Positions 1,330 to 34,119 of a stretch of 35,105 bases of DNA are shown here, in pieces. This stretch comes from Chamaesiphon sp. 336R_metabinner_41. GTDB lineage: Bacteria; Cyanobacteriota; Cyanobacteriia; Cyanobacteriales; Chamaesiphonaceae. The DNA lies in assembly GCA_025359915.1 (NCBI GenBank), contig JANYDE010000043.1:1-35105 (forward strand), read 5' to 3'. Under the pieces are notes generated by a model. That model did no database searches, was not told where the DNA came from, and saw only the letters and a program-made list of their open reading frames with translations. Positions within the stretch are counted from its first letter, which is position 1; every line of letters begins with the position of its first letter. Both the position numbers and the translations under genes were made by a program.

Positions 1330-1922
1330 TAGCTTCTTTTCTATAACTCGCCCACTACTTAAATTTAACACTTATGGCTGGGATTGAACGGCATAAATGT
1401 AAGTACTCCCTTCCCACCCAGAAAATAGACTACTTAGGATCACCGTTACACACGAATAACCCATCCACTGTCTTGAAAAGGTGCTCCCTTGGGGAAACCC
1501 CAAGACCGCACTTTTCGCTATCCACCATTCACTATTCACTCACTATTCTAGATATCTAATTCTTCACTAGGAAGGGAGTAGCTATTTTTTGAGAGCAGAT
1601 TGGGCATAATAAGTGCAACTAGTATGGATAGTTACAAGATCGGGTGTAAGCTACGCAGGGGAACATCAAACAGCCCTTCAGCGTCTTTAAACATCTAGAT
1701 CGCAATTACACAAAAGACAATCCAAAGGCATAAATCGACCAGGTACAATCCATAGTTAATATCCTCACCTCATCTTATTTTCCCGAAGACTCGATCGATC
1801 GAGATTACTTAGGACTAGAATTCTGAAAAGGTACGATAAAACACTGAGGGTAAAATCCAGCTCCAAGCCTTAAACTAGGTTATGAAACGTCAACCCGATC
1901 GCGAATAATATATACATCTTTT
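1330..1922. other. Intergenic region between mnmA and the OPX gene
   Basis: About 590 bp between two divergent genes. It holds one dispersed repeat (1469-1519) and presumably the promoters of both neighbours. The sequence is otherwise AT-rich and without a convincing gene. The 61-codon plus-strand frame at 1374-1559 runs across the repeat and is not believed to be coding. Confidence 0.6.
1469..1519 (+). repeat. Dispersed repeat, element-free copy of the repeat at 30669-30793
   Basis: It starts TGTCTTGAAAAGGTGCTCC and ends GACCGCACTTTTCGCT. The same two halves occur at 30669-30793, where they are separated by the 73-bp element. Here they are joined by only CTT. This copy therefore represents the site without the insertion. 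Confidence 0.8.
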
Positions 1923-5323: not shown

Positions 5324-6352
5324 ATGAGGATTAATGACCCAAACTTACTTCAACAAGTCGTTAACTACCTAGATAAACATCAAGAGGCAGTTCGCATCAA
5401 AAAAATGCTGTATTGTCTATGTACTGGTAGATGGGAAAAAGACAAAGATTATTTAAACTCGATTAATTTTCAATATTTAATCGAGCAAATAGTTAGAGAA
5501 AATAATACACTAGATCTGTTTAGAGTATTGTTGCAAAACCTGATTGGTACAGTTAATAAACCAAAAAAATATATTGAGGTCGCTAAAGTAATTTACTTAG
5601 CCATCGGACAATTGTACCCTGAATTTAATCAGGAACATGGTGGTCGATCGAAGACAGCTCCACCGAAAGTCGAAGCGGTATCATCACCAATGATACCTCA
5701 ACCAGAGCATACTCATGCAACGATCGATCGCCCTGTGCCTTCGTCATTTCAGCGTGCTTACGCACCAGAACAGACTCAAGCATTGACAAGTCAGCATGTG
5801 CCTTCGTCATTTCAACGTGCTTATGCGCCAGAACAGACTCAGGCATTGACAAGTCAGCATGTGCCTTCGTCATTTCAACGTGCTTATGCACCAGAACAAA
5901 CTCAACAATTTGAAGTTCAAGCACCTATTGATAATGATGTAGATGAGTCTGCATACGAAACTTTTTGTGCGCCAGATCCCTCAGAACAAGGGCAATACGA
6001 CAATCCCGAAGATCGGCATGATGAATTCACCATTCCTGAATACGATCCCTTTGTCTTGCGGCAAAGTGTGATGACCTACGCAAATCCTTTGCGTGCCAAA
6101 ATAATTTTGTTGTTGATGCTGCGACCTGACTTTAACTTTAGCAGCCAGTCGGTCACGATGATGCGAGAATATCAGCTCGACGACCTTTTATTAGAACTAC
6201 TTAAAGCTTACCCCTCAATGCCAGAACTAGAAGAAACCATGACTTTTGTTGTCGAGCAGCTAGCCGAGATTGAGGAGTATGGGAAGGCTGCAAGTGGATT
6301 GCTACAATCTTTAATACCTTTATATACAAGTAAAACACGAGGTGGACGGTAG
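5324..6352 (+). CDS. Unknown two-domain protein with a tandem-repeat linker
   Basis: 342 residues, soluble, no signal peptide. The N-terminal part (about 1-105) is helical and basic (IKKMLYCLCTGRWEKDKDYL). The C-terminal part (about 244-342) is helical and starts near YDPFVLRQSVMTY, with ANPLRAKIILLLML. Between them is a Pro/Gln/Ser-rich linker with 2.7 near-identical copies of a 21-residue unit (about residues 138-195), encoded by a 63-bp tandem repeat. I believe similar N-plus-C pairs occur in other cyanobacteria as hypothetical proteins, but I cannot name the family or function. A strong bidirectional hairpin follows at 6435-6473. Confidence 0.75.
   Translation: MRINDPNLLQQVVNYLDKHQEAVRIKKMLYCLCTGRWEKDKDYLNSINFQYLIEQIVRENNTLDLFRVLLQNLIGTVNKPKKYIEVAKVIYLAIGQLYPEFNQEHGGRSKTAPPKVEAVSSPMIPQPEHTHATIDRPVPSSFQRAYAPEQTQALTSQHVPSSFQRAYAPEQTQALTSQHVPSSFQRAYAPEQTQQFEVQAPIDNDVDESAYETFCAPDPSEQGQYDNPEDRHDEFTIPEYDPFVLRQSVMTYANPLRAKIILLLMLRPDFNFSSQSVTMMREYQLDDLLLELLKAYPSMPELEETMTFVVEQLAEIEEYGKAASGLLQSLIPLYTSKTRGGR
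5735..5908 (+). repeat. 63-bp in-frame tandem repeat
   Basis: The units are 5735-5797, 5798-5860 and a partial one at 5861-5908. They differ at only a few, mostly synonymous, positions. Each encodes a 21-residue segment containing SSFQRAYAPEQTQ. The near-identity suggests recent expansion and likely length polymorphism between strains. Confidence 0.9.
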
Positions 6353-6434
6353 TTATTGAGATTGAAGGTGACGCTCTCACCGCTAATCGGAGTAACACTT
6401 TGGCGGGAGTACCTCGGAGGATGAGATGGAATCG

Positions 6435-6473
6435 AAAAGTGAGGTCTTAGGGTTTCTCCAAGACCTCACTTTT
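6435..6473. terminator. Hairpin terminator, likely bidirectional
   Basis: A perfect 14-bp stem (AAAAGTGAGGTCTT with its complement at 6460-6473) closes an 11-nt loop. It carries a T tract on the right side and an A tract on the left. It lies 82 bp after the stop of the 342-residue gene. Confidence 0.75.
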
Positions 6474-6550
6474 TGAAGACAGATGTGAGTTTGCATAGTT
6501 AATTGAGCTACTCTATTAAACGTTGGCTGTCTTGTGAGAGAAGATTAATT

Positions 6551-7150
6551 ATGGTAAGAACTGCATCGACAATGTTACCTTTGGGCGTGAGTGCGCCAGA
6601 CTTTGAGCTAACTGATGTGGTTAGTGGCGCACCGATTTCCCTGGCGACTTTTGCGGGTAAACCAGCATTGCTGGTGATGTTTATTTCGGTTCACTGTCCA
6701 TTTGTCAAGCACGTTCAAACCCAATTGGCGCAGATTGGCAAGGATTATGCCAGTCAAGGTTTGGCAATGGTGGGAATTAGCCCCAATGACATCGAGAAAT
6801 ATCCTGATGATGCTCCAGAGCATTTACAAGCTTTAGCCCATGCTGAGGGGTTTAATTTCCCACTCTGTTGCGATGCTAGTCAAGCTGTGGCGAAGGTTTA
6901 TACGGCTGCTTGTACGCCTGATTTCTTTTTATTCGATGCCGAACGACATTTAGCTTATCGGGGACAATTAGATGATAGTCGTCCTTCTAATGGTAAACCA
7001 GTTACTGGACAAGATTTACGGGATGCGATCGAATCCTTACTCGCCGGAAAAGATGTAGATCCCAATCAACGCCCCAGTATTGGCTGCAATATCAAGTGGA
7101 TTGAAGGCAATGCGCCGGAGTATTTTACGGGTGTTAGAGCAGAGGAATAG
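6551..7150 (+). CDS. Thioredoxin-fold redoxin (AhpC/TSA-like)
   Basis: A thioredoxin-fold protein of the peroxiredoxin-like class. After a short N-terminal extension it has APDFELTDV, then a beta strand ending in SVHCPFVKH. The active-site motif is C-P-F-V rather than C-x-x-C, which is usual for this subfamily. Further cysteines occur in PLCCD and AACTPDFFLFD. The cis-proline region TPDFFLFD is intact. The C-terminus (IGCNIKW) is also typical. The frame is open from a TTG at 6503, but the ATG at 6551 follows GAGAGAAG at good spacing. The substrate is not known. The TAG stop overlaps the left arm of an inverted repeat. Confidence 0.85.
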   Translation: MVRTASTMLPLGVSAPDFELTDVVSGAPISLATFAGKPALLVMFISVHCPFVKHVQTQLAQIGKDYASQGLAMVGISPNDIEKYPDDAPEHLQALAHAEGFNFPLCCDASQAVAKVYTAACTPDFFLFDAERHLAYRGQLDDSRPSNGKPVTGQDLRDAIESLLAGKDVDPNQRPSIGCNIKWIEGNAPEYFTGVRAEE

Positions 7151-7230
7151 TAGGTTGGGTTGAAGCATGAAACCCAACATCTGGATGTTGGTGTGTTCGT
7201 TGGGTTTTGCTTGCGCGCAACCCAACCTAC
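7150..7230. repeat. Inverted repeat with 12-bp arms (GTAGGTTGGGTT)
   Basis: The left arm is 7150-7161 and the right arm 7219-7230, a perfect 12-bp match. The left half, through AAACCCAACA, recurs almost exactly in reverse orientation at 32877-32906. Together they form a dispersed repeat family. The hairpin could end transcription between the redoxin gene and sqdB. Confidence 0.75.
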
Positions 7231-20180: not shown

Positions 20181-21764
20181 TTAGGCTTGCATTTTGGTTA
20201 ATAAAGCTTGCGTCAGGGGGCTATCTGACAATCGATCTACTTCGTCAGCATTCACGACTTTCTGGAGAAAACCCAGAAAATTCACTCGAACTTTCTGAGT
20301 CTTCGGATGATCGATCCCAAAATGTTTTACTCTAATTTCTATCGATCGATTATATAGTAATTCTGCCTCACGATACCGCTTCATTGCTTGATAGAGAAAG
20401 GCTAAATTAGTGAGACTTGTAGCAGTTTGAATTCGATCTACCCCAAAGTGCTGCTCCCTGATTGCTAATGATTGAGTGTATAGTCCTTCTGCCTCGCTGT
20501 ATCGTTCCAATTTATAATATAAACTCCCCAAATTATTTAAGCTTTGAGCAGTATGAAGATGATGCTCACCTAGCTGGTGTGTTCTCGTTGCTAGAGCGCG
20601 AACATATAACAATTCTGCCGCATCATAGCGTTTGGTTTTGGAATAGAGTACCGCTAAATTATTCAGTCCTTGAGTCGTATTTGGATGACTCTGTCCTAAC
20701 TGTTGTTCATAGATATTCAGTGCCCGAAGATACAATGGTTCTGCCTCTGGATATTCTTCGATCCGATAGTGCAAACTCGCCAAATTGTTTAGTCCCTGCG
20801 CTGTATAGGGATGATCTTTTCCCAACTGTCGATCGTAAATTTCTAGCGCGCGGATTAATTGAAATCGAGCGTCGGGAAATCTGCCCATCTGATAGTACAA
20901 ATTCGCCAAATTGTTTAGTCCCTGCGCTGTATACACCTGACTGGATCCCAACTCCTGTTTGCAGATCCCGACAGCGCGAACATATAGCAGTTCTGCTTCC
21001 TCATATCGTTGGAGTAATTGATATAAACTGCCAAGATTGTTGAGGCTGGGAATAATATCTACATGACTGGGACCTAATTCTTGATCGTTAATTTTGAGTG
21101 CGCTAGTATACAGAGATTCGGCATCATTGTATCGTTTCATCTCAACATACAAATCAGCCAAATGGTTAATACTTCCTACCATCTCTAAATGTTCTGCACC
21201 TACTTTGTGTTCATAAATTTTGAGTGCGCGAATATTCAGATCTTCGGCGCGTTGATAGAACTTTTGCTCTGAAGAATCAAATTGCCCCATCGCGATATAT
21301 AGCTTGGCAAGATCTTGCAAGCTCTGAGCAGTGTCAAGATGATTTCCGCCTAATTTTTGTTCGTAGATAGCCTGAGAGCTTAAGTACAAAGGCTCCGCCT
21401 CTACATATCGTCCCATCACTAAATATAGCTTTGCCAAATGATTCAAGCTTTGTGCAGTATCAATATGGTTTACGCCTAATTTTTGAACGCAAATATCATG
21501 AGATCGAATATACAAAGGCTCCGCTTCTGTATATCTTCCCATTGCCGTATACAATTGAGCCAGACTGTAGAGACGATGAGCGGTATGTAAATGATTGCTG
21601 CCTAGTCGCTCTTCCGTGGACAATAAAGATCGAGTATAAAATGTTTCCGCCTCTGTATATCTTCCCATCGATTCATACAAAATTCCCAGTTGACTGGAAT
21701 TACCAATATTTCGATGAGATGGCAATAATTGTAACTGAAGAGTGGAATTCGGAACCTCGTTCAT
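20181..21764 (-). CDS. TPR-repeat protein (kinesin-light-chain type)
   Basis: 527 residues, almost entirely made of about 11 tandem 42-residue units. Each has the pattern LNNLA.LY..M.RY.EAE.LY.RAL.I....LG..H, as in the TPR_10/TPR_12 class. The fourth unit has a small insertion (FDSSEQKFYQRAEDLN). There is no signal peptide, membrane segment or partner domain such as an NB-ARC or CHAT. It is therefore probably a cytoplasmic protein-binding scaffold with unknown partners. It lies upstream of the sugar locus on the same strand but is separated by the epimerase remnant. Confidence 0.9.
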   Translation of the reverse strand: MNEVPNSTLQLQLLPSHRNIGNSSQLGILYESMGRYTEAETFYTRSLLSTEERLGSNHLHTAHRLYSLAQLYTAMGRYTEAEPLYIRSHDICVQKLGVNHIDTAQSLNHLAKLYLVMGRYVEAEPLYLSSQAIYEQKLGGNHLDTAQSLQDLAKLYIAMGQFDSSEQKFYQRAEDLNIRALKIYEHKVGAEHLEMVGSINHLADLYVEMKRYNDAESLYTSALKINDQELGPSHVDIIPSLNNLGSLYQLLQRYEEAELLYVRAVGICKQELGSSQVYTAQGLNNLANLYYQMGRFPDARFQLIRALEIYDRQLGKDHPYTAQGLNNLASLHYRIEEYPEAEPLYLRALNIYEQQLGQSHPNTTQGLNNLAVLYSKTKRYDAAELLYVRALATRTHQLGEHHLHTAQSLNNLGSLYYKLERYSEAEGLYTQSLAIREQHFGVDRIQTATSLTNLAFLYQAMKRYREAELLYNRSIEIRVKHFGIDHPKTQKVRVNFLGFLQKVVNADEVDRLSDSPLTQALLTKMQA

Positions 21765-25838: not shown

Positions 25839-25890
25839 GCGGATGCGCTTACTGTTCGGGTTCCTAGGGCACGTGTAGCGCACCAAGCAG
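25839..25890 (+). repeat. Dispersed repeat, element-free copy of the repeat around 33971-34092
   Basis: It starts GCGGATGCGC and ends AGCGCACCAAGCAG. The same ends flank the 73-bp element at 33984-34056 in reverse orientation. The middle part differs moderately. It lies in a G-rich, gene-free stretch (25746-25968). Confidence 0.65.
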
Positions 25891-30668: not shown

Positions 30669-30793
30669 TGTCTTGAAAAGGTGCTCCACTTGCGGCGTTT
30701 TTATTCTCCTGGGGGAGAGGCTCCGCCAACGGGGGTTCCCCCCGAATAAAAAAACGACAAGACAGGGGAAACCCCAAGACCGCACTTTTCGCT
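30669..30793 (+). repeat. Dispersed host repeat interrupted by the 73-bp element
   Basis: The two halves match 1469-1519: TGTCTTGAAAAGGTGCTCC on the left and GACCGCACTTTTCGCT near the right end. Between them sits the 73-bp element at 30692-30764. This is the filled version of the 1469 site. Confidence 0.8.
30692..30764 (-). mobile_element. 73-bp MITE-like element, copy 1
   Basis: A non-coding element with no open frame of its own. Its ends are GCGGCGTTTTTATTC and GAATAAAAAAACGACAAGACA, which are imperfect inverted repeats (the TTTTTATTC cores pair). The middle is GC-rich and hairpin-forming. It is identical over all 73 bp to the reverse complement of 33984-34056. The strand is defined arbitrarily against copy 2. 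No target-site duplication is obvious. Confidence 0.65.
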
Positions 30794-30868
30794 CCCATCT
30801 CCCATCTCACCGAGATCGACATAAAAAGCCATAAAATTGAGAGTACCAGTGCTATATTTAATTTTCCG

Positions 30869-31753
30869 ATGAATTTTCAATCTGTCGTTGCTACTCTAAA
30901 CCAATTCTGGAGCGCGCAAGGCTGCGCAATCGTCCAATCCTACGATACTGAAAAAGGTGCAGCTACCAAGAGTCATCATACCTTCTTGAGATCGATCGGT
31001 CCCGAACCTTGGTCAGTTGCATATATCGAACCTTGTCGTCGTCCCGGGGATGGACGCTATGGTAATAATCCCAATCGTTATCAACACTATTACCAATATC
31101 AAGTGCTGATCAAACCCTCTCCCGATCACATTCAGGAAATATATCTAGACTCGCTCCGAGCTGTCGGAATTAAACCAGAAGATCATGACATTCGGTTTGT
31201 CGAGGATAATTGGGAAGACGCAGCAATGGGTGCGTGGGGAGTCGGTTGGGAAGTGTGGCTAGATGGGATGGAAGTTACGCAATTTACCTATTTCCAGCAG
31301 TGTGGCGGGATTGATTGTCGTCCAGTATCGATCGAAATTACCTACGGATTGGAGCGGCTCTGTATGTATCTTCAGGGCGTAGATTCGATCGCCAAAATTA
31401 TGTGGAATGATACGCTTACCTATGCCGATATCTATCTCCAATCAGAAATCGAGCAATCTACCTACAATTTTGAGGCATCCAATCCTGAGTTATTATTTAC
31501 ACTCTTTAATCTTTATCAACAGGAAGCCGAACAACTGATTGCCAAAGAATTGGTGATGCCGAGTTTAGATTATGTGCTCAAATGCTCCCACACCTTCAAT
31601 ATGCTGGATGCACGGGGAGTAATATCTGTCACCGAGCGCACTAGATATATTACCAAAGTCCGAAATTTAGCCAGACAAGTCGCTCATCTCTATCTAGCAC
31701 AACGCGAGAAACTAGATTTCCCCCTCCTAGCTAAACTTCCTATTTCCGTGTAG
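30869..31753 (+). CDS. glyQ: Glycyl-tRNA synthetase alpha subunit GlyQ
   Basis: The alpha chain of the bacterial alpha2-beta2 GlyRS. It forms glycyl-AMP and the active site, and the beta chain (glyS) binds tRNA. Signatures include [55 protein letters not shown] and [12 protein letters not shown]. At 294 residues it is full length. glyS is not next to it, so the subunits are encoded apart in this genome. The repeat-rich leader contains the 73-bp element about 105 bp upstream. Confidence 0.97.
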
Positions 31754-31782
31754 GATATCGCTGTTGAAATTTAGTCAAAACC

Positions 31783-31818
31783 GCCGAAACCCATGTGGTG
31801 GGCAATGCCCACCCTACG
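31783..31818. repeat. Small inverted repeat between glyQ and psbN
   Basis: GGTGGGCA and TGCCCACC flank a 1-nt centre. This is another palindromic repeat type of cyanobacterial intergenic DNA, possibly acting as a terminator for the convergent glyQ and psbN. Confidence 0.6.
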
Positions 31819-31841
31819 GCTATCAACTAAACCACTAAACT

Positions 31842-31973
31842 CTAGTCTTCATGATCGTCAAAAGGATCCGAAAGTTGCTTAGATGGAGCACCAAAAGAAA
31901 TGTATAAACCATAGGCAGTAGTGAGAACTACCATTAAGCCTAGTGTAATGCTAAGAATTGTTGAATCTTCCAC
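31842..31973 (-). CDS. psbN: PsbN
   Basis: A 43-residue protein with one transmembrane helix, needed for photosystem II assembly and repair rather than as a core subunit. The sequence starts EDSTILSITLGLM and ends GAPSKQLSDPFDDHED, matching the PsbN tail. The start is GTG at 31973. Upstream in frame there is no ATG before a TAG. A weak AAGG lies about 10 nt before it. It is divergent from psbH, the conserved cyanobacterial and plastid arrangement. Confidence 0.93.
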   Translation of the reverse strand: MEDSTILSITLGLMVVLTTAYGLYISFGAPSKQLSDPFDDHED

Positions 31974-32140
31974 GATCGAGTTACCTTTAGGATGTGACTA
32001 CTCCTATAATGTTACTGAATTTTACAAAAATTTACCAAAATCTCATCATAATTAATATCGATCGATTCTAGCTCGACTCCTAAAACCCAGAATGGAATCG
32101 GTTGTCAAAAACTAGGATTTTCTTTGGTAGACTGAAGGGT

Positions 32141-32155
32141 GTGGAATATTTCCAC
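32141..32155. promoter_or_regulatory. Dyad in the psbH leader
   Basis: GTGGAA and TTCCAC flank TAT, about 40 bp before the psbH ATG. It could be an operator or an RNA hairpin in the leader. Only the symmetry supports it. Confidence 0.3.
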
Positions 32156-32192
32156 CCCATATATATTATCCACTTAACATCATTGGTGACAC

Positions 32193-32396
32193 ATGGCACA
32201 GCGCACTAAATTAGGAGATATTCTCAGACCTTTGAATGCTGAATATGGTAAAGTCGTTCCTGGTTGGGGCACTACCCCAGTCATGGGCGTATTTATGCTA
32301 TTATTCTTGGTCTTTTTATTGATCATCCTCCAAATCTACAATAACTCCCTCGTTCTGGATAGTTTTTCTGTTGGCTGGAGTGGTAGCGGACAATAA
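32193..32396 (+). CDS. psbH: Photosystem II reaction centre protein PsbH
   Basis: A 67-residue thylakoid protein of the PSII core with one transmembrane helix. It has the family pattern [28 protein letters not shown], then a helix at about residues 30-47 ([19 protein letters not shown]) and a lumenal tail ending near SFSVGW. It lies divergent from psbN and is followed by tatA on the same strand 113 bp away. Confidence 0.97.
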
Positions 32397-32509
32397 GTTC
32401 TGCCGTGACTGGAGATTGGGTTTATACTCCCGATCTTCGGTTAATTTGGATACAATAGTGGTACAGGACAGGCAATTATACTGTCAAAGCAATTGGAAGG
32501 AAAAGAATT

Positions 32510-32761
32510 ATGAATTTTTTTGGGATCGGTTTACCGGAAACTATCGCGATCGCGGTTGTCGTATTATTGGTGTTTGGTCCCAAGAAATTGCCAGAAATCG
32601 GGAAGAGTCTAGGTAAAGCAATTAAGGGTTTCCAAGAAGCTTCGACTGATTTTCAATCCGAGTTCAAGAAAGAAGTAGATGCGATTGAATCCGTAGTAAA
32701 AAATCCCAGTCAAATTGAATCGACTGAAGCTATCGATACTAAATCAGATCGGAACCTATAA
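32510..32761 (+). CDS. tatA: Sec-independent translocase protein TatA
   Basis: 83 residues. It forms the pore-like oligomer of the twin-arginine translocase in the thylakoid or plasma membrane. It has an N-terminal helix (IGLPETIAIAVVVLLVFG), the hinge FGPKKLPEIG and an amphipathic helix (GKSLGKAIKGFQEAS). The acidic/polar C-terminal tail is variable in this family. The ribosome-binding site GGAAGGAA sits before the ATG. No tatC is visible in the window. Confidence 0.94.
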   Translation: MNFFGIGLPETIAIAVVVLLVFGPKKLPEIGKSLGKAIKGFQEASTDFQSEFKKEVDAIESVVKNPSQIESTEAIDTKSDRNL

Positions 32762-32776
32762 ACTTCAACAAAAATT

Positions 32777-32807
32777 AGGGGTCTAAGTCCCCCTCCTAAA
32801 AACCTAG
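32777..32807 (+). repeat. Dispersed hairpin repeat, partial copy 3
   Basis: It starts AGGGGTCTAA and continues CCCCCT and CCTAAAAACC, matching the first half of the repeat at 33892. It follows the tatA stop by 15 bp and could end its transcript. Confidence 0.45.
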
Positions 32808-32876
32808 CTATTCTCCGAAGGAGCAACTGAGCCGACGAAAACGTCGTCTAAGGCATGAAAGAAACTTTGTTGGGTG

Positions 32877-32906
32877 TGTTGGGTTTCATTCTTCAACCCA
32901 ACCTAC
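32877..32906 (-). repeat. Copy of the GTAGGTTGGGTT repeat
   Basis: In reverse orientation it matches 7150-7179 with one clear difference. Only this part of the longer inverted repeat is present. Confidence 0.7.
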
Positions 32907-32961
32907 AGATCCTTGTACTGAGCCAATTTCAGCTAAGTTCCTTAGAAGAGGCTCTCAGGAA

Positions 32962-32988
32962 CAACTATCAACTATCAACTATCAACTA
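32962..32988. repeat. Heptamer array, unit CAACTAT
   Basis: Nearly four copies, just downstream of the IscA-like stop codon. Confidence 0.9.
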
Positions 32989-32990
32989 AA

Positions 32991-33356
32991 TTAAGTTGGT
33001 AATTGCCATCGTGCTGATGCTGCATCAGCAGTCAAGATCGAAAAAGAGTTACCACAACCGCAAACACTAGTTGTGAGAGGATTTTCAAACCGAAAACCTC
33101 CACCCATTAGATCTTCCGAGTAGTCTAATTTAAGCTTGTCTAAATATTCTACCTGTAGAGGATCGATCGATACCGAAATACCGCTAACCTCGCAGACTTT
33201 ATCCTCGCCATCGATTGAGTCTACCAGATCGATAGTATAGTAAAAATCCTTGCAACCACCACTAGCAAACCCAATGCGGAATTTGCTAGCAGTTTGCTCG
33301 CGCACTGCCTGCATTCTTTTAATTTCACAGATCGCAGCCTTGCTAATTTCAATCAT
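32991..33356 (-). CDS. Iron-sulfur assembly protein of the HesB/IscA/SufA family
   Basis: 121 residues, an A-type Fe-S carrier. The three conserved cysteines are visible: one in ASGGCKDF and two in VCGCGNSF. The N-terminal IEISKAAICEIKRM helix is usual. The ATG overlaps the cupin gene's TAA as TAATG, so the two are probably translated from one message. Which client cluster it serves cannot be told. Together with sufU at 3992, the window encodes two separate Fe-S assembly factors. Confidence 0.88.
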   Translation of the reverse strand: MIEISKAAICEIKRMQAVREQTASKFRIGFASGGCKDFYYTIDLVDSIDGEDKVCEVSGISVSIDPLQVEYLDKLKLDYSEDLMGGGFRFENPLTTSVCGCGNSFSILTADAASARWQLPT

Positions 33357-33724
33357 TATTTATCAGAATTTCTTGCATAATCATCTTCAAACCGGACAAT
33401 ATCATCTTCACCCAAATACTCACCATTTTGGACTTCGATGATTACCAATGGAATCACACCAGGATTTTCCAATCGATGCTTGGTGCAAGCAGGTACATAC
33501 GTAGACTGATTGCTATGTAAAATCTCTTCCTTACCATTGCACGTCACCATCGCAGTCCCACATACCACAATCCAGTGCTCGCTACGATGATAGTGCATTT
33601 GGAGACTCAATCGATGCCCTGGCTTGACTTCGATCCGTTTAATCTTATGTCCTTTACCTTCTTCCAAGATTGTAAACGAACCCCAAGGACGTAACTCGGT
33701 TGCTGCAACAGTATTGGTAGCCAT
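33356..33724 (-). CDS. Cupin protein of the mannose-6-phosphate isomerase type II group
   Basis: About 122 residues from the ATG at 33724. The frame also offers an ATG at 33766, giving 136. It matches the C-terminal cupin of ManC/type II PMI: LRPWGSFTILEEG, then IKRIEVKPGHRLSLQMHYHRSEHWIVVCGTA (metal-type His/Glu set) and GEYLGEDDIVRFEDDYAR at the end. In full ManC this domain follows a GDP-mannose pyrophosphorylase; here it stands alone. Isomerase activity is likely from the family, but not certain. It is coupled to the IscA-type gene by TAATG. Confidence 0.85.
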   Translation of the reverse strand: MATNTVAATELRPWGSFTILEEGKGHKIKRIEVKPGHRLSLQMHYHRSEHWIVVCGTAMVTCNGKEEILHSNQSTYVPACTKHRLENPGVIPLVIIEVQNGEYLGEDDIVRFEDDYARNSDK

Positions 33725-33891
33725 CTGGGGAGTCAGTGTTAAATCGCTGGTTTGTGTTTTAGTCATAGTTTTAGAGTTAATGGGTCGATCGAGATTTAGA
33801 TATCGTCAATCACTTTACCAAAATCGGTAGATCTCCCGAATCGACAAATATACTGATATTAGCCACAACAATTGATTCGCTAGTAGAAAAC

Positions 33892-33950
33892 AGGGGTTTA
33901 AATCCCCACCTAAACGGTGGATTGTGGTTAGTTTGGGATCGAAATCCCTC
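33892..33950 (+). repeat. Dispersed hairpin repeat, copy 2
   Basis: The stem CCACC / GGTGG has a TAAAC loop (33906-33920). A second stem, GGGAT / ATCCC, surrounds CGAA (33935-33948). It is homologous to 3828-3889. Differences in the second stem keep base pairing. Confidence 0.6.
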
Positions 33951-33983
33951 GCGCGATACAACCAAATTCTCTGCTTGGTGCGC

Positions 33984-34056
33984 TGTCTTGTCGTTTTTTT
34001 ATTCGGGGGGAACCCCCGTTGGCGGAGCCTCTCCCCCAGGAGAATAAAAACGCCGC
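33984..34056 (+). mobile_element. 73-bp MITE-like element, copy 2
   Basis: Identical over 73 bp to the reverse complement of 30692-30764. The flanks differ from those of copy 1 and match the ends of the repeat at 25839-25890. Together with copy 1 this indicates transposition or gene conversion of a short element with inverted-repeat ends. Confidence 0.65.
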
Positions 34057-34119
34057 TAAACCGTCGGGGAACCCGACGAACGCGCATCCGCAATTATCAA
34101 TTATTTTAGTGGCTTCCTG

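Follow-up and report, generated by a model that had tools for sequence, protein, structure and literature searches.

Element A, a small tagged hairpin that moves and nests within other palindromic repeats of Chamaesiphon

Very small repeats that insert precisely are already known from cyanobacteria, and to our knowledge it is an open question how the smallest mobile DNAs (those of fewer than 100 nt, non-coding) move. The subject of this report is element A, a short hairpin present twice in a 35,105-nt stretch of Chamaesiphon sp. 336R_metabinner_41 (contig JANYDE010000043.1, positions 1 to 35,105; hereafter the window). Element A is mobile, as seen at loci where one or two species carry it and others have the empty site, and its ends form a tag common to sequence-unrelated stems, a 5' foot GCG and a 3' tail CAAGACA (TGTCTTG-hairpin-CGC on the opposite strand).

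The small dispersed repeats (SDR) of cyanobacteria, reportedly described by Elhai et al. in 2008, are very small and insert precisely, also into other repeats, and in all of these respects element A is like them. SDR5 is stated to be inserted precisely inside HIP1 (PMC4390886), and cyanobacterial families resembling repetitive extragenic palindromes (REPs) lack conserved terminal motifs (PMC3733652, citing Elhai et al. 2008), whereas the tagged hairpins, compared with SDR by description rather than by sequence, possess such motifs. Among the papers listed in searches of the open-licence literature, none was found with this tag, its stem-independent membership, or this nesting, and element A may be identical with a published SDR.

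REPs and REPINs carry GT[AG]G or CGTC tags and have REP-associated tyrosine transposase (RAYT, TnpA_REP) genes (PMC3733652, PMC6006769, PMC3116915); in A. variabilis, T. roseum, and H. neapolitanus, some GTAG and CGTC families are reported to sit within palindromes (PMC3733652). Like these, element A forms short dispersed hairpins, many per genome, which are non-coding and bear a one-sided, unpaired, conserved tag. Unlike these, its tag is TGTCTTG with foot CGC, several unrelated stems stand behind one tag pair, and no RAYT gene was seen flanked by its own tagged hairpins, within limited flanks of 27 of the 28 Y1 transposase matches. The sequence-only reading, made from the letters of the window, had set an unusual REP-type element against a mobile one; the two are compatible, since element A behaves as a REP with another tag, being REP-like in form and departing from REPs in that tag and in the lack of a linked RAYT gene at the loci read.

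IS200/IS605 insertion sequences (IS) and their palindromic derivatives, such as the non-autonomous PATE, share with element A the absence of target duplication, tags that confer polarity, and hairpins; element A differs in that no tnpA or tnpB with its ends was seen at the sampled loci, and in having no left target of 4-5 nt. Rickettsia palindromic elements (RPE) and miniature inverted-repeat transposable elements (MITEs) such as Nezha are named in PMC3733652. One copy of element A resembles an RPE in lying in frame in a coding gene, adding 16 residues, with host and sequence being different and a single in-gene case established. MITEs are likewise small and non-autonomous, whereas element A makes no target duplication, and no IS with its ends was seen in searches that were not genome-wide.

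Unit, ends, and movement of element A

The two window copies (Table 1) lie in opposite orientations and are identical over 73 nt, as had been read from the sequence, or over 74 nt including the next base, and the boundaries then proposed, GCGGCG...GACAAGACA, are correct, with the same ends reappearing beside differing flanks. The 73 bp taken as the unit must be revised: the commonest unit is 49 nt (GCGGCGTTTTTATTC-GGGGGTTCCCCCCGAATAAAAAAACGACAAGACA), and the 73-mer is this unit with 24 nt added at the hairpin tip. A length of 49 nt is found in 85 of 120 distinctly flanked copies, the others being 31, 46-51, 67, or 73-75 nt, or 96-124 nt if nested (13 right ends without an upstream GCGGCG or GCGTCG, some of them variants of element A, were excluded). 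Loci L019 and L035 carry the extra tip piece (TCTCCTG..GGAGAGGCTCCGCCAAC) the other way round compared with the remaining copies of 73-75 nt, and this piece resembles a separate dispersed module.

Searching the 73 bp against the genome and its relatives, as had been suggested, gave 47 BLAST matches in the 4.23-Mb assembly of origin, a few of which are a single palindrome matched on both strands; most are partial, covering positions 39-73, because the usual element is 49 nt long. Among 40 genomes, matches were found in nine, these being the nine of the genus Chamaesiphon, and in none of the 31 outside it. For the 49-mer, DNA folding gives -16.1 kcal/mol (z -5.37, compared with z -2.95 for the 73-mer), its arms pairing into one hairpin that leaves the outermost GCG and CAAGACA unpaired, with the tip pair 16-28 varying by compensation over 30 distinct 49-nt sequences (GC 17, TA 7, AT 3, other 3). 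Head-to-tail tandems of the 49-mer without a spacer are present on two contigs of genome G005 (C78, 3983-4080; C186, 43-142), and would be the expected product of a circle or of insertion at the element's own end.

At each of three loci, element A is present in one or two species while others have the empty site; two of these loci show exact joins with no target duplication, and at the third one base is lost. Upstream of a gene whose product begins MALVPMRLLL, which we take to be a class II fructose-bisphosphate aldolase (fba-like), the 49-mer is found in G000 and G001, ~30 nt before the start codon, as ATCTTT(A or C)|TGTCTTG...CGCCGC|AATAT, with G002 empty and reading ATCTTTA|AATATG, an exact join without duplication. 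G007 is also empty, with one A fewer. In G003, G005, and G006 the element is missing and the right flank has diverged, and the insertion point was not seen in G004 or G008. At locus L038, the 49-mer is present in G003 and the empty join in G007 and G006, with G004 carrying an element A in which a second hairpin (GCGGATTG...CAACCAAGCA) is nested; G000 has a different repeat there, and the remaining genomes are not comparable. The third locus is a glycosyl hydrolase 3 (GH3) gene of G002 (L094, 5670-7463, minus strand; Pfam PF00933 and PF18034), presumably NagZ-like, in which element A occupies 6068-6116 with the loss of one base, a net 48 bp in frame. The reading frame stays open, with 16 residues added at about the start of the second Pfam match, and seven other aligned genomes are without element A.

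These orthologous loci refute a fixed composite, in which the 73-mer and its surroundings would be one old repeat and the 'empty' forms deletions. The two window copies do share a long identity, as such a composite would, and yet flanks differ among copies, and at orthologous sites the species that carry the element are outnumbered or equalled by empty ones, leaving this explanation with practically no credence. What is borne out instead is the proposal of a very small mobile element, non-autonomous and with a preference for palindromic repeats: there are empty sites in relatives at all three loci and 25 target classes with different flanks among the copies, and neither of the two outcomes named beforehand as refuting the proposal came about. 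For 78 of 106 copies (those longer than 80 nt, i.e. nested, or less than 60 nt from a locus end being excluded, as also for the target classes), an empty counterpart was found that joins without a gap and agrees at 9 or more of 12 positions on either side, and among those listed it is mostly another repeat of the same class; the other 28 copies have no empty counterpart among the loci compared.

The strong hairpins lying near genes, such as those at the fba-like start codon and within the GH3 frame, might instead be retained because they serve the cell (as terminators, in mRNA stability, or as an in-frame peptide), with slow spread by rare recombination and mobility that is incidental. We consider this very improbable, given that neither the window elements at gathering scores nor nine loci at E up to 1 gave a match in Rfam 15, and that the 25 largest clusters shown include no protein family that is widely recurrent next to the hairpins.

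At the window sites themselves, the earlier comparison stands in part. Copy 1 does split a repeat, host hairpin B, whose other form near the start of the window was taken as the intact site; that form is one base short (CCCTT compared with CCACTT|GGGG) and is not the exact empty site, and the identical uninterrupted counterpart lies in locus L060 of a relative. Copy 2 splits host hairpin C, to which the hairpin at 25839-25890 is indeed related, and this is a weak empty site because its centre has diverged, with closer empty counterparts in L225 and L110. Both of the supposed empty sites are in fact sister elements, belonging to the same tagged-hairpin group as element A. The neighbours of site 1 match different contigs in relatives, and at site 2 six relatives readable on both sides are without the composite of A and C, with no exact join, whilst G008 has a different hairpin.

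Sister hairpins, shared tags, and target sites

The sister hairpins have unrelated stems and share the foot GCG and the tail CAAGACA (CAAGCAG in one), and are nested in each other and in RAYT-linked GTAG REPs. Sister B is GCG-AAAAG...CTTTT-CAAGACA, with a DNA fold of -12.6 kcal/mol (z -3.85), and sister C is GCG-GATGCGC...GCGCACC-AAGCAG; further tagged hairpins have very different stems again, as in GCG-ACGCATCGAACGGGAGG...-CAAGACA and GCG-ACCGAAATCGCG...-CAAGACA. Occasionally the tail is present several times over, as (AAGAC)n, an example being CAAGACAAGACA (loci L309, L052, and L281).

Under a strict stem criterion, the 1.98 Mb made up of the window and sampled sequence of G006 and G000 contain 10 hairpins of the form GCG...CAAGACA, compared with two or fewer for each of the other 63 three-base feet, and with a mean of 0.42 and a maximum of 7 for 100 permuted tails; the maximum belongs to the tail AACGACA, and is probably the same copies of element A in another register. 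Under looser stem criteria, by which chance hits are frequent, 794 kb gave 22 tagged hits against a mean of 3.1 and a maximum of 9.

In the B family, aligned from nine sequences of Chamaesiphon and other cyanobacteria, 98.5% of 135 cells are paired and 5 of 15 pairs have changed on both sides, with the covariation score reached by none of 500 shuffles and slid registers at most 63.7% paired. For a further group of stems, D, the outer triplets of five distinct types picked by hand, with the C type (3 of 14 rows) left out, are paired at 14 of 15 positions, a result equalled by 2 of 120 permutations including the real one; a mis-registered count on all 14 rows gave 27 of 42 pairs against a shuffled mean of 24.0, which is not significant. 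The compensating changes in the stems suggest that it is folded DNA that is recognised.

Tagged hairpins are numerous in Chamaesiphon. An exact scan of genome contigs with the last 21 nt of element A returned, in the best 80 of 90 stretches, sequences of Chamaesiphon or of one uncultured cyanobacterium throughout, and outside the genus a query of A with B matched 35 of 282 genomes of the order, through B among the rows listed. Eleven such loci have both tags exact in two (L286, L287), partial in five, and not kept in four, and 393 kb from five of the 35 out-of-genus genomes contained no tagged family and one weak hit. In loci L292-L295, from other cyanobacteria, the core of B stands between outer arms of another sequence (in L293-L295 they read GAGC...GCGT), which may represent a second tag pair. 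No match was found in the plasmid or phage collections, and inspection by eye of 19 viral contigs that match tail-bearing patterns exactly revealed no such hairpin.

Of the 120 copies of element A, 110 are preceded by A, the other 10 by T, and none by G or C. Counted over the 25 target classes the preceding base is A in 20 and T in 5, and for the 33 tagged hairpins that pass the strict criterion, whatever their stem and with element A making up many of them, it is A in 27 and T in 6. Many of the targets are GTAG REPs, of the types GTAGGGGCAATTCATGAATTGCCCCTAC, GTAGGGGCGGG...CCCGCCC, and GGTACCC / GCACCGCC, each of which also adjoins RAYT genes, with the insertion point, judged by eye, lying near the border between the loop and the 3' arm of the target hairpin. 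One such point, CCCCTC...GGA|GGGGTG, has received four different stems under the looser criteria, in addition to element A.

This abundance of REP targets would suit an element without movement of its own, which spreads with the RAYT-mobilised GTAG REPs that contain it, or through recombination of one REP with another. A rough pattern sort places about 50 of 106 copies in four target classes of the REP type, members of these REP families are found on the flanks of RAYT genes, and one copy sits in a REP directly upstream of the L167 RAYT gene; moreover, the A-in-B composite on contig C12 matches that of the window over 155 bp at 96%, so that some composites may have been copied whole. As the sole route, such hitch-hiking is already contradicted by the fba-like, L038, and GH3 loci, where the 49-mer alone has been added and no REP with it, and by the same ends of element A across the 25 target classes, and we regard it as improbable.

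Candidate routes of movement

A reading that we place just on the probable side of even is that element A is a tagged, non-autonomous hairpin inserted by an enzyme acting in trans. Such an enzyme would recognise the tag and the folded stem rather than the stem sequence, and would place the hairpin after A or T, as a rule without target duplication. Frequent landing in other palindromic repeats, at the loop or close to the 3' arm, would then lead to nested hairpins. One common enzyme may serve all of the tagged hairpins, and the form that moves may be single-stranded. The enzyme is probably a Y1/HUH transposase, RAYT-like or IS200/IS605-like, supplied in trans and acting on single-stranded DNA, a preference that follows from the absence of duplication, the one-sided tags, and the apparent recognition of the fold. 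In PMC6006769, Y1-type enzymes are described as reading a hairpin together with a guide at its foot. A wider proposal, which we regard as possible but doubtful, is that any hairpin with foot GCG and tail CAAGACA is mobile whatever its stem, moved in trans by an enzyme distinct from any linked RAYT and from the known IS, with another hairpin as the preferred site, such that hairpins accumulate inside hairpins.

In the tagged-hairpin group, filled and empty sites can be compared cleanly, the ends are defined, and many naturally occurring stems share one short conserved tag, which makes the question of whether an enzyme reads structure or sequence directly testable. It also represents one route by which small palindromes build composite repeats in cyanobacterial genomes.

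The sequence-only reading saw no transposase in the window, and Pfam agrees for 27 of the 38 open reading frames (ORFs) of at least 100 aa, the other 11 being outside the Pfam test. Y1_Tnp matches, 28 in total, were found in eight of the nine genomes of the genus. The sole tagged hairpin in the Y1 flanks read is the copy of element A that splits another REP just upstream of the L167 RAYT gene; at a distance of up to 1.5 kb the tail 7-mer is found near some Y1 loci, with a copy of element A ~0.9 kb from the gene in L173. No recurrent transposase was apparent within 400 bp of tagged hairpins, as judged by eye from the 25 largest clusters shown of 625 ORFs. At six target types in 3.16 Mb of sampled loci, no gene-bearing insertion was found; one insert of 167 nt and 26 rows without the left half are, by inspection, short nested elements, variants, or locus ends. 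No IS with ends GCG and CAAGACA was seen at these six target types, in sampled loci rather than genome-wide, and no full-length Y1 element with the ends of A was seen there or in the Y1 flanks read, the genomes having been sampled and not taken whole.

Several observations weigh against the reading of a trans-acting enzyme that recognises tag and fold. As regards the enzyme, no transposase gene is flanked by tagged hairpins in the flanks read of 27 of the 28 Y1 matches (at most 260-420 nt, L172 omitted, most of the genomes being drafts in many contigs), at least 16 of the Y1 matches adjoin other repeat families by eye, and G008, a genome 77% complete, has element A without a Y1_Tnp match. The left flanks of element A have no common target of 4-5 nt, only A or T, and this, together with the want of a linked gene, counts against a Y1/HUH enzyme in particular. 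As regards the sites, the excess at the loop/3'-arm border is modest under strict Watson-Crick pairing, with the arm starting at shifts 0 to -3 in 3-6 of 25 classes and elsewhere in 0-3. Under the strict criterion, two stem families occur at CCCCTC...GGA|GGGGTG and one at each of the five other site types listed, one copy of element A (L144) is reversed within its REP, and the GH3 insertion has cost one base. As regards the tag and the fold, the looser criteria over the full 1.98 Mb give a smaller excess (85 hits against a mean of 22 and a maximum of 43 for 60 permuted tails), and the foot AGC then scores 73, probably in part because the same hairpins are counted shifted one base to the left. 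Further pair types of the B family are matched by 36 of 500 shuffles, and the hairpin tip of element A occurs in both orientations, GGGGTTCCCC in 68 and GGGGAACCCC in 16 of 88 copies of 49 nt, which the model leaves unexplained.

The tagged hairpin could alternatively be moved by a double-strand enzyme with little or no duplication and a very short core, such as an IS110/IS1111-like enzyme or a serine or tyrosine recombinase. The base following the insertion is G in 19 of the 25 target classes, and both junctions are often A|G, which is compatible with a shared core of 1-2 bases; the head-to-tail tandems could derive from circles, and ISPpu9, an IS110 relative, is reported in REPs. However, the following base is C at L038 and GH3, and at the fba-like locus it is T in G000 and in the empty G002, with G in G001. 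IS110 transposases were moreover found in three of the nine genomes, some of the others being incomplete, whereas element A is in all nine, and the compensating stems suggest recognition of folded DNA. We consider a double-strand enzyme unlikely, and retain the single-stranded Y1/HUH route in trans as the preferred one.

Features of the window

The copies of element A, their host hairpins, and the sister elements are collected in Table 1.

Table 1. Positions of element A, host hairpins, and sister elements in the window.
Feature	Position	Strand	Basis or remark
Element A copy 1, 73-nt form, GCGGCG...GACAAGACA	30692..30764	+	Identical to copy 2
Element A copy 2, 73-nt form	33984..34056	-	Identical to copy 1
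Extra tip piece of 24 nt, copy 1	30707..30730	+	Remaining 49 nt are the commonest A sequence
Extra tip piece of 24 nt, copy 2	34018..34041	-	Comparison with 49-nt copies
Host hairpin B, one half (TGTCTTG... on + strand)	30669..30691	-	Unsplit B found at 1469-1518 and in L060
Host hairpin B, other half (...CGC on + strand)	30765..30792	-	Sequence comparison
Host hairpin C, one half (CTGCTTGGTGCGC on + strand)	33971..33983	-	Sequence comparison
Host hairpin C, other half	34057..34091	-	Six readable relative spacers without the A + C composite, no exact join
Sister element B, uninterrupted, 50 nt: GCG-stem-GGGGTTTCCCC tip-stem-CAAGACA	1469..1518	-	Fold; family covariation
Sister element C, centre diverged: GCGGATGCGC...GCGCACCAAGCAG, tail CAAGCAG	25839..25890	+	Sequence comparison
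Decayed B-like hairpin: foot TCG, tail GAAGACA, stem kept	6432..6481	+	Sequence; repeat family D7

Three further features lie elsewhere in the window. An inverted pair of a GTAG-type repeat (GTAGGTTGGGTTGAAGCATGAAACCCAAC) at 7143-7179 and 32877-32913 resembles, by eye, the repeat beside the L164 RAYT gene. On the minus strand, 32234-32294 matches the Rfam Plastid-psbN 5'UTR family at 50.3 bits against a threshold of 50, and at 20491-21680 tandem repeats of 126 nt lie inside a tetratricopeptide-repeat gene.

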